Assembly: GCA_904394215.1 (NCBI GenBank)
Contig: CAJFNF010000025.1
Location: forward strand, 1 to 32,930
From: an uncultured Faecalibacterium sp.
GTDB lineage: Bacteria > Bacillota > Clostridia > Oscillospirales > Ruminococcaceae
Direction of reading: 5' to 3'
DNA length: 32,930 nucleotides
Part shown: piece after piece, positions 9,133-10,627 of the stretch
Position numbering within the stretch: the first letter of the stretch is position 1
Layout: each line of letters begins with the position of its first letter
Notes under the pieces: model-generated
What the model saw: only the letters and a program-made list of their open reading frames with translations
What the model was told of the DNA's origin: nothing
Database searches by the model: none
Made by a program: the position numbers and the translations under genes

Positions 9133-9627
9133 ATGGCAAAAGAAGCCAAGACAAACGCCATGCGGATGCTGGAAAAAGCAAAGGTGGCCTACACCGCCCA
9201 CGAGTACCCCCACGAAGAAGGGGTGGCTGTGGACGGCGTGACGGTGGCCCAGAGCATGGGGGAGGATCCGGCCTGTGTGTTCAAGACCCTGGTGACCCAG
9301 GGTGCCAGCCGGAACTATTTTGTGTTCGTGATCCCGGTGGCGGCCGAGCTGGACTTGAAGGCGGCGGCCCGCAGCGTGGGAGAAAAGAGCGTGGCCATGA
9401 TCCACGTGGCCGACATCAACAAGGTCACCGGCTACATCCGGGGCGGATGCAGCCCGGTGGGGATGAAAAAGCTGTATACCACCGTCTTTGACCAGAGCGT
9501 CCTGGACCAGGAAAAAGTCTATGTGTCCGCGGGGCGGATCGGGCTGCAGATTTGCTGCGCCCCCGCCGACCTGATCCGGGCCGCAAAGGCCAAAACCGCC
9601 CCCATCACCCATCAGGCAGCAGAATAA
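9133..9627 (+). CDS. ybaK: YbaK-type Cys-tRNA(Pro) deacylase
   Basis: This 164-residue cytoplasmic protein matches the YbaK/EbsC trans-editing family, which hydrolyses Cys mischarged on tRNA-Pro. Family features are the opening TNAMRMLEKAKVAYTAHEY, the lysine-containing VFKTLVTQG segment (the conserved Lys being essential in the family), and the C-terminal GGCSPVGMKK...VYVSAGRIGLQICCAPADL. Length is normal. An AAGGAAAG ribosome site precedes the ATG, with GAGGG further upstream. It is monocistronic and divergent from aroF. Confidence 0.9.
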   Translation: MAKEAKTNAMRMLEKAKVAYTAHEYPHEEGVAVDGVTVAQSMGEDPACVFKTLVTQGASRNYFVFVIPVAAELDLKAAARSVGEKSVAMIHVADINKVTGYIRGGCSPVGMKKLYTTVFDQSVLDQEKVYVSAGRIGLQICCAPADLIRAAKAKTAPITHQAAE

Positions 9628-9744
9628 GAGCGATTTTTATTTGACGGCAGTTTGTTTAAAAAACGAAAGTGACACCCCCCGGCAGGCTGTGGTAAGAAAG
9701 AAGTCGTACTATTATAGGTTTACGTGGGAAATTTGCACAAAACT

Positions 9745-9762
9745 TTCCGAATGTGCTCGGAA
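9745..9762. promoter_or_regulatory. CCGAA-containing palindrome upstream of purE
   Basis: TTCCGA (9745-9750) and TCGGAA (9757-9762) form a perfect inverted repeat with a 6-base spacer, about 40 bases before the candidate -35 box. The CCGAA core recalls the Bacillus PurR box, but the half-site spacing is much tighter, so the identity of any binding protein is unknown. Confidence 0.35.
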
Positions 9763-9799
9763 CAGGTAAAACACAAGGGAGAATTTGTGTAAAATCCCT

Positions 9800-9827
9800 T
9801 TGCAAAGGCGGCGGTTTGCCGTACACT
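9800..9827 (+). promoter_or_regulatory. Candidate promoter of the purine operon leader
   Basis: TTGCAA (9800-9805) and TACACT (9822-9827) are 16 bases apart (17 if TTTGCA is taken), with transcription starting near 9834. It is placed correctly for the structured leader that follows. Confidence 0.45.
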
Positions 9828-9833
9828 GTAGAC

Positions 9834-10078
9834 AGGAAAGGGCGCCGCCCGGCGCTCTGACAGCAAATGACAGGCGCCCGCCACAGGGCGCCGGGGACGG
9901 ACGGAAACGATGAACTTTCAGACAAGGAAGATGGCCGGGGCCCGGGGCGGATGGATGCTGCCGGGGTACCCCAATGGATTCAGCCGGCGGATGCCGAGTG
10001 CTCCCGCCGTGTTTCGTCGTACCGTCATGGATACAAAGTAAGGCCGTGGTGTAGCCGCATCACAGCCTTTTTTGTTTT
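9834..10078 (+). ncRNA. Candidate structured purE leader RNA
   Basis: Visible structure: stem GGGCGCC/GGCGCTC (9840-9857); TGACAG direct repeats (9858 and 9868); a perfect stem GGCGCCC/GGGCGCC (9873-9892); then a long-range stem in which GACGG, ACG and GAAAC (9896-9908) pair with GTTTC, CGT and CCGTC (10011-10026), giving 13 pairs and enclosing about 100 nt. An intrinsic terminator ends it 50 bases before purE. This is the layout of a transcription attenuator or riboswitch, or of a separate small RNA. I could not match the purine, ZTP or PRPP riboswitch cores. Function as a purine sensor is inferred only from position. Confidence 0.45.
10041..10078 (+). terminator. Intrinsic terminator upstream of purE
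   Basis: AGGC and GTGGTG (10041-10051) pair with CATCAC and GCCT (10058-10068) with one internal mismatch, followed by six T residues, G, then four more T. It lies inside the purine operon leader, so it either ends a separate small RNA or is a regulated attenuator. Confidence 0.75.
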
Positions 10079-10126
10079 GCTGGGGGCTTCGGCCCGTTTT
10101 TCTGGATAAGGATGGAGGAAAAGCGT

Positions 10127-10627
10127 ATGATTCGTAAAGTAGCCGTGATTATGGGTTCCGACAGCGACTGGCCGGTGGTCAAGGGCGCCTGCAGCCAGCT
10201 GAAAGACCTGGGCATCCCCTTTGAGGCCCACATCCTGTCGGCCCACCGCACCCCCGCCGAGGCGGCCGCCTTTGCCCGCCAGGCCAAGGAAAATGGCTTC
10301 GGCGTGATCCTGTGCGCCGCCGGCATGGCCGCCCACCTGGCCGGCGCCTTTGCCGCCAACACCACCCTGCCGGTGATCGGCATCCCCATGAAGGGGGGCG
10401 CCATGGACGGCCTGGACGCCCTGCTGGCCACCGTCCAGATGCCCAGCGGCATCCCGGTGGCAACGGTGGCCCTGAACGGCTCCAAGAACGCCGCCTGGCT
10501 GGCCGCCGAGATCCTGGCCCTGTCGGATGAGGCCCTGGCCGCCCGCCTGGAGGAAGAGCGGGCCAAGATGGGCAAGGCCATCGCCGCCAAGGAAGAAAAG
10601 CTCCAGCAGGAAGTGGCCGCCCTGTAA
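10127..10627 (+). CDS. purE: 5-(carboxyamino)imidazole ribonucleotide mutase PurE
   Basis: This 166-residue cytoplasmic enzyme converts N5-CAIR to CAIR (class I) in IMP synthesis. MGSDSDW (residues 9-15) and SAHRTP (38-43) are the PurE nucleotide and active-site motifs, and VQMPSGIPVATVALNG follows later. The usual GGAAHLPG loop reads GMAAHLAG here. No purK is seen in the window, so the source of N5-CAIR, or direct use of CO2, is open. The start at 10127 (MIRKVAV) follows GGAGGAAAAG; an earlier in-frame codon at 10112 would overlap that site. It is the first gene of the purine operon. Confidence 0.95.
   Translation: MIRKVAVIMGSDSDWPVVKGACSQLKDLGIPFEAHILSAHRTPAEAAAFARQAKENGFGVILCAAGMAAHLAGAFAANTTLPVIGIPMKGGAMDGLDALLATVQMPSGIPVATVALNGSKNAAWLAAEILALSDEALAARLEEERAKMGKAIAAKEEKLQQEVAAL

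Follow-up and report, generated by a model that had tools for sequence, protein, structure and literature searches.

The window, by which we mean the whole stretch of 32,930 nt that was analysed, is part of a 2.42-Mb draft genome and contains a row of purine-synthesis genes which, from their sequences, we take to be purE, purF, purM, purN and further genes up to purH. Among the matches listed, the closest named PurE proteins are those of an uncultured Faecalibacterium sp. and of Faecalibacterium sp. An122 (95% identity, records of the genome itself being possibly excluded). PurE matches were obtained in all 31 genomes of the same genus and in 87 of 100 genomes of the same family. The segment upstream of purE (9834-10078) is probably transcribed as the leader of this gene; its features, together with those of the adjoining DNA, are collected in Table 1.

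Table 1. Features of the purE leader and its surroundings (positions in the window).
Feature	Position	Strand	Description and basis
Operator-like palindrome AAGTCGTACT	9701..9710	.	Possible regulator site upstream of the promoter; pattern counts
Probable promoter	9800..9827	+	TTGCAA (9800-9805), 16-nt spacer, TACACT (9822-9827); from sequence, presumed start near 9834
Two GC hairpins	9839-9858 and 9873-9892	+	8 bp and 7 bp; folding; not conserved, missing in several of ten subclade leaders
Putative ribosome binding site of leader ORF	9898..9909	+	Weak, GGACGG type; short match to AGGAGG only
13-pair long stem	9900-9914/10013-10026	+	ORF start region with ORF 3' part; folding
Leader ORF	9910..10041	+	43 codons, MNFQTRKMAGARGGWMLPGYPNGFSRRMPSAPAVFRRTVMDTK; stop TAA 10039-10041
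Intrinsic terminator	10040..10073	+	Stem 10040-10052/10057-10069, loop 10053-10056, six-T run 10068-10073
Pause-like motif GG-N6-TGYA, GGCCGTGGTGTA	10042..10053	+	Terminator 5' arm plus first loop base; putative function
purE	10127..10627	+	First gene of the purine-synthesis row; ORF list

The promoter-like site that an earlier reading, made from the letters of the window (the sequence-only reading), had placed before this leader is confirmed in part: the motif is visible and its surroundings (9780-9833) are conserved in some relatives, with 93-94% identity in four of them, but it was not called by a consensus promoter scan. It is unlikely that purE has a promoter of its own downstream of the terminator: strict promoter-like matches occur in the interval between the two in 4 of 159 leaders, and in the window the sole match there is weak and overlaps the start codon. 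Upstream of the promoter, the pattern of the palindrome AAGTCGTACT was found in front of purE in 30 of the 31 regions from the genus (mean 2.8, maximum 7 in shuffled sequences) and in 10 of the 82 family regions, which is not above the shuffled value of 7.9. Related forms are present in 11 of 28 guaB upstream regions (2.7 after shuffling) and in 0 of 28 purA upstream regions, and the palindrome is considered as a candidate operator of a purine regulon. Two more inverted repeats lie 5' of the promoter, at 9745-9762 (TTCCGAATGTGCTCGGAA) and 9771-9790 (ACACAAGGGAGAATTTGTGT).

The classic terminator described earlier is present and is conserved in the genus, the ATG of purE (10127) following 53 nt past its T-run. 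Searches at the DNA level matched 28 of the 31 same-genus genomes (E ≤ 0.01), with every best match spanning at least query positions 262-297 and the closer ones also spanning the promoter region (query 1-54); the remaining three genomes have variant terminator stems. Stem and loop are invariant in the ten leaders of the subclade alignment (A1, the window being counted in). When 61 genomes were searched, matches with E ≤ 1 were obtained in 51, nearly all of them due to chance, the terminators of genomes G018 and G012 being of use. A second terminator match in genome G062 was rejected as an ordinary gene-end terminator, located 3' of an ORF that presumably encodes a DegV-like protein. In the window, the main terminator is followed at 10079-10100 by another hairpin, which is weak, carries a TTCG loop and a T-run, and by eye is also present in the nearest relatives; it would escape masking by a ribosome standing at the stop codon of the leader ORF.

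This ORF, which went unnoticed in the sequence-only reading, ends on the terminator: the last two bases of its TAA are the first two bases of the terminator stem. Its start ATG is kept unchanged in all ten subclade leaders, and a purine-rich stretch similar to the putative ribosome binding site precedes the start codon across the ten members. The peptide of the window corresponds to no Pfam or NCBIfam family, as is the case for all six leader peptides tried, and the peptides are divergent among relatives. Nine same-genus ORF pairs, taken together, gave pN 0.16, pS 0.24 and a dN/dS of 0.63, a value that indicates mild purifying selection; for two genomes of the genus (G066, G070), no start could be assigned by the start-calling rule of this pair comparison. 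Indel lengths within the ORF were not enriched for multiples of three (33 of 146, counted on crude pairwise alignments of overlapping pairs), an outcome that lends no support to coding and counts against it. We infer that the ORF is translated.

Recurrence of this arrangement was evaluated using the following rule: a short ORF with a Shine-Dalgarno match of at least 4, whose stop codon is located at -12 to +2 of the terminator stem. Expected values were derived from dinucleotide shuffles of the 250 nt 5' of the stem, and counts are given relative to leaders in which a terminator was called, those lacking one being excluded (14 of 82 in the family, 22 of 86 in the order, 31 of 80 among named genomes). 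Leaders bearing a riboswitch (28) were separated by Rfam matches and by a sequence pattern. The arrangement was found in 26 of 31 leaders of the genus (7.4 ± 2.6 after shuffling), 50 of 66 of the family (7.2 ± 1.7) and 21 of the 38 riboswitch-free leaders of the order (3.6 ± 2.1), a set that contains a few same-family genomes. The count in named genomes was 29 of 49 (3.7 ± 1.4), this set being the best 80 of more, overlapping the genus and family sets and thus not independent of them. With a stricter rule (match of at least 5, ATG or GTG start), counts were 19/31 in the genus and 35/66 in the family against 1.1 and 1.2 in shuffles, and 15/38 in the order, 20/49 in named genomes and 1/28 in riboswitch-bearing leaders against 0.3, 0.7 and 0.1. 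Stop codons cluster at -12 to -1 relative to the stem, with group medians of -1, -7, -5 and -3. A leader-ORF attenuator layout thus recurs before the purine operon, and this recurrence is real.

Beyond the order (presumably Oscillospirales in GTDB terms), a purE match was present in 52 of 59 genomes from other orders of the class, and 28 loci were examined. An ORF followed by a terminator was called in 2 of these 28, both doubtful and one lying next to a ZTP-like pattern, so the device looks confined to this order. The sequence of the window is equally consistent with a short transcript that has its own promoter and terminator, that is to say a stand-alone small gene or RNA which ends at an ordinary terminator and does not control purE. 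Such a gene is very unlikely: many genomes of the order share the layout in front of purE, with a median distance of 37-49 nt from terminator to first aligned PurE codon, strict promoter-like sites in that interval are as rare as stated above, and the divergent peptides matched no family in the six cases tried. A 6S-like RNA, which the sequence-only reading had offered as its main alternative, is rejected in so far as the leader would be the 6S RNA of this genome, since the 6S model (RF00013) matches the genome once and elsewhere (G000:C26:14117-14321, 61.2 bits).

The structural elements of the 5' part were recovered as previously described, namely the two GC hairpins joined by two copies of TGACAG (9858-9863 and 9868-9873) and the 13-pair long-range stem. 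On these elements, together with the promoter-like site and the terminator, the sequence-only reading had founded its proposal of a ligand-controlled attenuator, i.e. an unclassified ligand-binding leader RNA (riboswitch). The attenuator part of the proposal is supported by the layout, and its claim that the leader is without the core of a purine, ZTP or PRPP riboswitch agrees with Rfam: there was no match in the leader of the window at gathering scores, and a search of 9620-10140 with E up to 10 gave three matches, all implausible. A predicted stable fold, a location before purE and the ZTP riboswitches found there in other families can be cited in favour of a ligand-binding RNA, but its 5' structure is variable. 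The 245-nt fold is weakly above chance in stability (z -1.81, with 7 of 200 shuffles as good), the first hairpin is missing in 4 and the second in 5 of the ten subclade leaders (by eye), and the middle of the leader aligns only in the nearest same-genus genomes in DNA searches. In the ten-leader alignment, 82% of the cells of the 13-pair stem are paired; the five pairs at its outer end (GACGG/CCGTC) are for the most part retained, and 7 of the 10 leaders have three inner pairs disrupted. The covariation that was to be looked for in relatives did not appear: compensatory changes are found in 0 pairs of the long stem, a single double change affects the second hairpin, and in the RNAalifold consensus 2 of 41 pairs are doubly changed, with an unfavourable covariation term (+1.08). 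Since it is the ORF layout which is conserved instead, we consider a riboswitch in this leader as highly improbable.

Genuine riboswitches are nevertheless found at this gene in relatives. Rfam was searched with 60 of the 82 family leaders and 40 of the 86 order leaders. The ZTP riboswitch (RF01750) precedes purE in 17 of the 40 order loci, all outside the family, and in 2 of the 60 family loci (0/20, 0/20 and 2/20), i.e. in 19 of 100 purE loci of family and order (L149, L175 and 17 of L290-L333); a purine riboswitch was found at a single order locus (L315). Among the 28 riboswitch-bearing purE leaders, which are also terminated by a hairpin, the ORF layout was called in 1, as expected by chance (1.3 ± 1.0). 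From the counts of ZTP riboswitches and leader ORFs it follows, at the level of sequence comparison, that two kinds of device alternate at purE, an aptamer or a leader ORF.

As the stop codon of the ORF touches the terminator, it is probably a ribosome that sets the purine operon on or off, and a transcription attenuator based on masking of the terminator by this ribosome is our preferred reading, which we hold to be probable. RNA polymerase would start near 9834, transcribe the ORF and then meet the strong terminator. A ribosome following closely and located at the stop codon would cover the 5' arm of the terminator, the hairpin could not form and transcription would continue into purE; with no ribosome at the stop codon in time, transcription would end and the operon would be off. 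In E. coli, about 90% of transcripts were terminated when the stop codon lay 28 bp upstream of a terminator, and fewer than 10% when this distance was 5 bp (PMC4824070); the median stop offsets of the relatives fall within this masking range. In B. subtilis, RNA polymerase outruns the ribosomes (runaway transcription; PMC9226507), and close coupling in this phylum is therefore not assured.

Pairing tests were performed on 126 leaders (z-scores) and 111 leaders (cognate pairing) that were left once near-identical peptides and short ORFs had been removed. An antiterminator formed by the 5' arm of the terminator and the 3' part of the ORF was not detectable: mean z was +0.27, 2 of 126 leaders were below -2, and the arm pairs worse with its own ORF 3' part than with foreign ones (cognate residual +0.69 kcal/mol). 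The likeliest mode of action is consequently that a ribosome standing at the ORF stop codon masks the terminator directly. Although a leader peptide and a terminator are present, as in amino-acid attenuation of the classical trp type with its antiterminator and regulatory codons, this type is very improbable, the least so favoured of the explanations considered being this one. Besides the missing antiterminator helix (z and cognate tests), no run of one residue was seen by eye in the peptide of the window or in common among the peptides, a serine-rich one in genome G125 being a single case, and purE is not an amino-acid gene.

The same tests bear on a version of this attenuator with a different sensor, in which purE would follow the rate of ribosome initiation on the ORF (ribosome supply, ppGpp). 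This capacity sensor would include a timing gate, since transcription of the ORF 3' part would lead to closure of the ORF start region. Pairing between start region and ORF 3' part is above that of shuffles (mean z -0.84, s.e. 0.11; 22 of 126 leaders below -2), the own partner is favoured over others by -2.04 ± 0.31 kcal/mol (p 3e-9, n 111), and the predicted openness of the start site decreases from 0.43 to 0.33 on adding the last 60 nt, compared with 0.36-0.38 if these are shuffled. However, an upstream control stretch also gave a small cognate effect (-0.78 ± 0.28, p 0.02), just 1-2 leaders had their cognate partner ranked first among the 111, and the leader of the window is without effect (residual +1.7), its long stem not covarying. 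Control by translation capacity is thus regarded as unlikely.

Within the masking attenuator, we favour as the signal, more speculatively, a delay of the polymerase at pause-like sites with a purine as next nucleotide. At low ATP or GTP, the polymerase would be slowed at such sites and the ribosome would gain time. The resulting purine-nucleotide sensor, devoid of an aptamer and composed of pausing at GG-N6-TGY-purine, ATP/GTP-dependent escape and a trailing ribosome that masks the terminator, is proposed tentatively as a possible arrangement. An EM motif search of the ORF region, run with no shuffled control, returned GG-N5-GTGYA-N-CC. The form GG-N6-TGYA was found 5' of the stem in 31 of 75 family leaders (5.9 ± 2.3 in shuffles) and in 21 of 31 genus leaders (3.4 ± 1.7). 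Of the variants at the last position (+1), TGYG occurred in 20, TGYC in 11 and TGYT in 4 of the 75 family leaders, against 6.6, 5.2 and 6.2 in shuffles, and none of the three was above shuffles in the 31 genus leaders. The register is blurred in the family (GG-N5-TGYA in 23/75 vs 5.5, GG-N7-TGYA in 15/75 vs 5.7), and the motif is also present 250-400 nt before the stem (18/31 in the genus, 7/75 in the family). Within the terminator 5' arm extended by 6 nt, it is found in 23 of the 31 leaders of the genus and in 14 of the 75 of the family; in the window, the ORF is free of GG-N6-TGYR and the terminator arm alone carries a copy (GGCCGTGGTGTA). The bacterial (E. coli) pause consensus is given in PMC9291695 as G-10 Y-1 G+1, with G+1 weighing most. 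The motif corresponds to the G-10...Y-1 part of this consensus, but its +1 is a purine, mostly A, instead of G.

Part of these observations can also be accounted for by the nascent peptide, again as another sensor within this attenuator: a leader peptide of the form G-[hydrophobic/H]-x-[A/V]-[small] would arrest the ribosome upon a purine-related metabolite, arrest upstream of the terminator switching the operon off and its absence leaving it on. After removal of near-identical peptides and short ORFs, 138 and 133 leaders were available for the peptide motif. The pattern G-[IHLVTRMFPK]-x-[AV]-[STAPCYFV], which was drawn up once the EM motif had been seen, is present in 58 of 133 non-redundant leader peptides (12.2 ± 3.0 in shuffles), and the likelihood of the peptide EM motif was 255 against 137-149 for five shuffles; a frame control, in which frames 1 and 2 exceeded frame 0, was discarded, its background having been taken from frame 0. 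The nucleotide motif itself prefers frame 0 of the ORF (74, 20 and 28 of 122 matches in frames 0, 1 and 2). On the other hand, third codon bases in the motif are more constrained than the codon usage of these ORFs would predict (T in 48 of 58 vs 19, A in 40 of 58 vs 15), which a peptide signal does not need, and the motif is therefore at least partly a nucleic-acid signal, although the frame preference and the enriched pattern would also suit a role of the peptide. The motif is moreover altered in the subclade of the window (AVFRRTV/GLCRTV), its distance to the stop codon ranges from 5 to 37 codons and the peptides diverge elsewhere, so that a peptide sensor appears distinctly unlikely. Sensing of fMet or 10-formyl-THF through initiation on the ORF was also considered and rejected by reasoning, its sign being wrong in comparison with the ZTP riboswitch.

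The ribosome-masking attenuator resembles the UTP-sensing pyrE and pyrBI attenuators of E. coli, in which a ribosome trails a paused RNA polymerase and masks the terminator. Shared with them are a short ORF (translated there, putatively so here) that ends at or in an intrinsic terminator, a location before nucleotide-synthesis genes, the lack of an antiterminator (none was detected here) and, as we would expect here, control through the closeness of ribosome and polymerase. The present case differs in concerning purine genes and Bacillota, and in having a GG-N6-TGY-purine pause-like motif, no U-rich pause tract having been noticed. With the ZTP riboswitch it has in common the gene, the place and an end in a terminator, whereas the window is devoid of an aptamer and control would be exerted by an ORF. 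Attenuators of the trp and his type likewise combine leader peptide and terminator, but here there is neither an antiterminator nor a common run of regulatory codons. The pyrBI attenuator is mentioned in PMC4824070, and ribosome-mediated attenuators of Bacillota, such as bmrCD and vmlR, are dealt with in PMC4191407 and PMC9226507. In the latter two, as presumably here, events of a leader ribosome govern an intrinsic terminator; they sense antibiotics, whereas the operon considered here is a housekeeping biosynthetic one and no alternative helix was found.

Among the titles listed by searches of the open-licence literature, none was on leader-ORF attenuation of purE or of the purine operon, 'purE' also matching the word 'pure'. 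Papers on the purine repressor of S. aureus (PMC13170274) and on the pur operon of B. subtilis (PMC4223553) concern other matters, judging by their titles. A leader-ORF attenuator before purE is accordingly undescribed among the titles listed, while belonging to a known kind of device. It would represent an unrecognised and widespread means by which gut bacteria belonging to this order regulate their purine synthesis, a means that trades places at purE with the ZTP riboswitch, and its short ORFs are new to the curated family libraries (six peptides tried). It also makes a debated question testable, namely whether the ribosome is close enough to the polymerase in this branch of the Bacillota, given the runaway transcription of B. 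subtilis. A purine sensor without aptamer would, if true, be the purine mirror image of pyrBI that replaces the ZTP riboswitch in this section of the order; transcription and translation would then have to be closely coupled in these Bacillota.

Other purine genes of the genus were inspected by eye, and the ORF-plus-terminator leader was not seen upstream of guaB (28 genus regions) or in the purA regions listed. In both guaB loci given to Rfam (L373, L352), the IMPDH RNA (RF02994) is located upstream of the gene. A leader element containing CCCGGGCAAGGTGCACGGAAAAGGC, for which no Rfam match was obtained at gathering score in six purA loci searched, is strongly conserved roughly 30-70 nt before purA: of the 28 regions upstream of this gene in the genus, 27 have it, including that of L401 (G000:C5).
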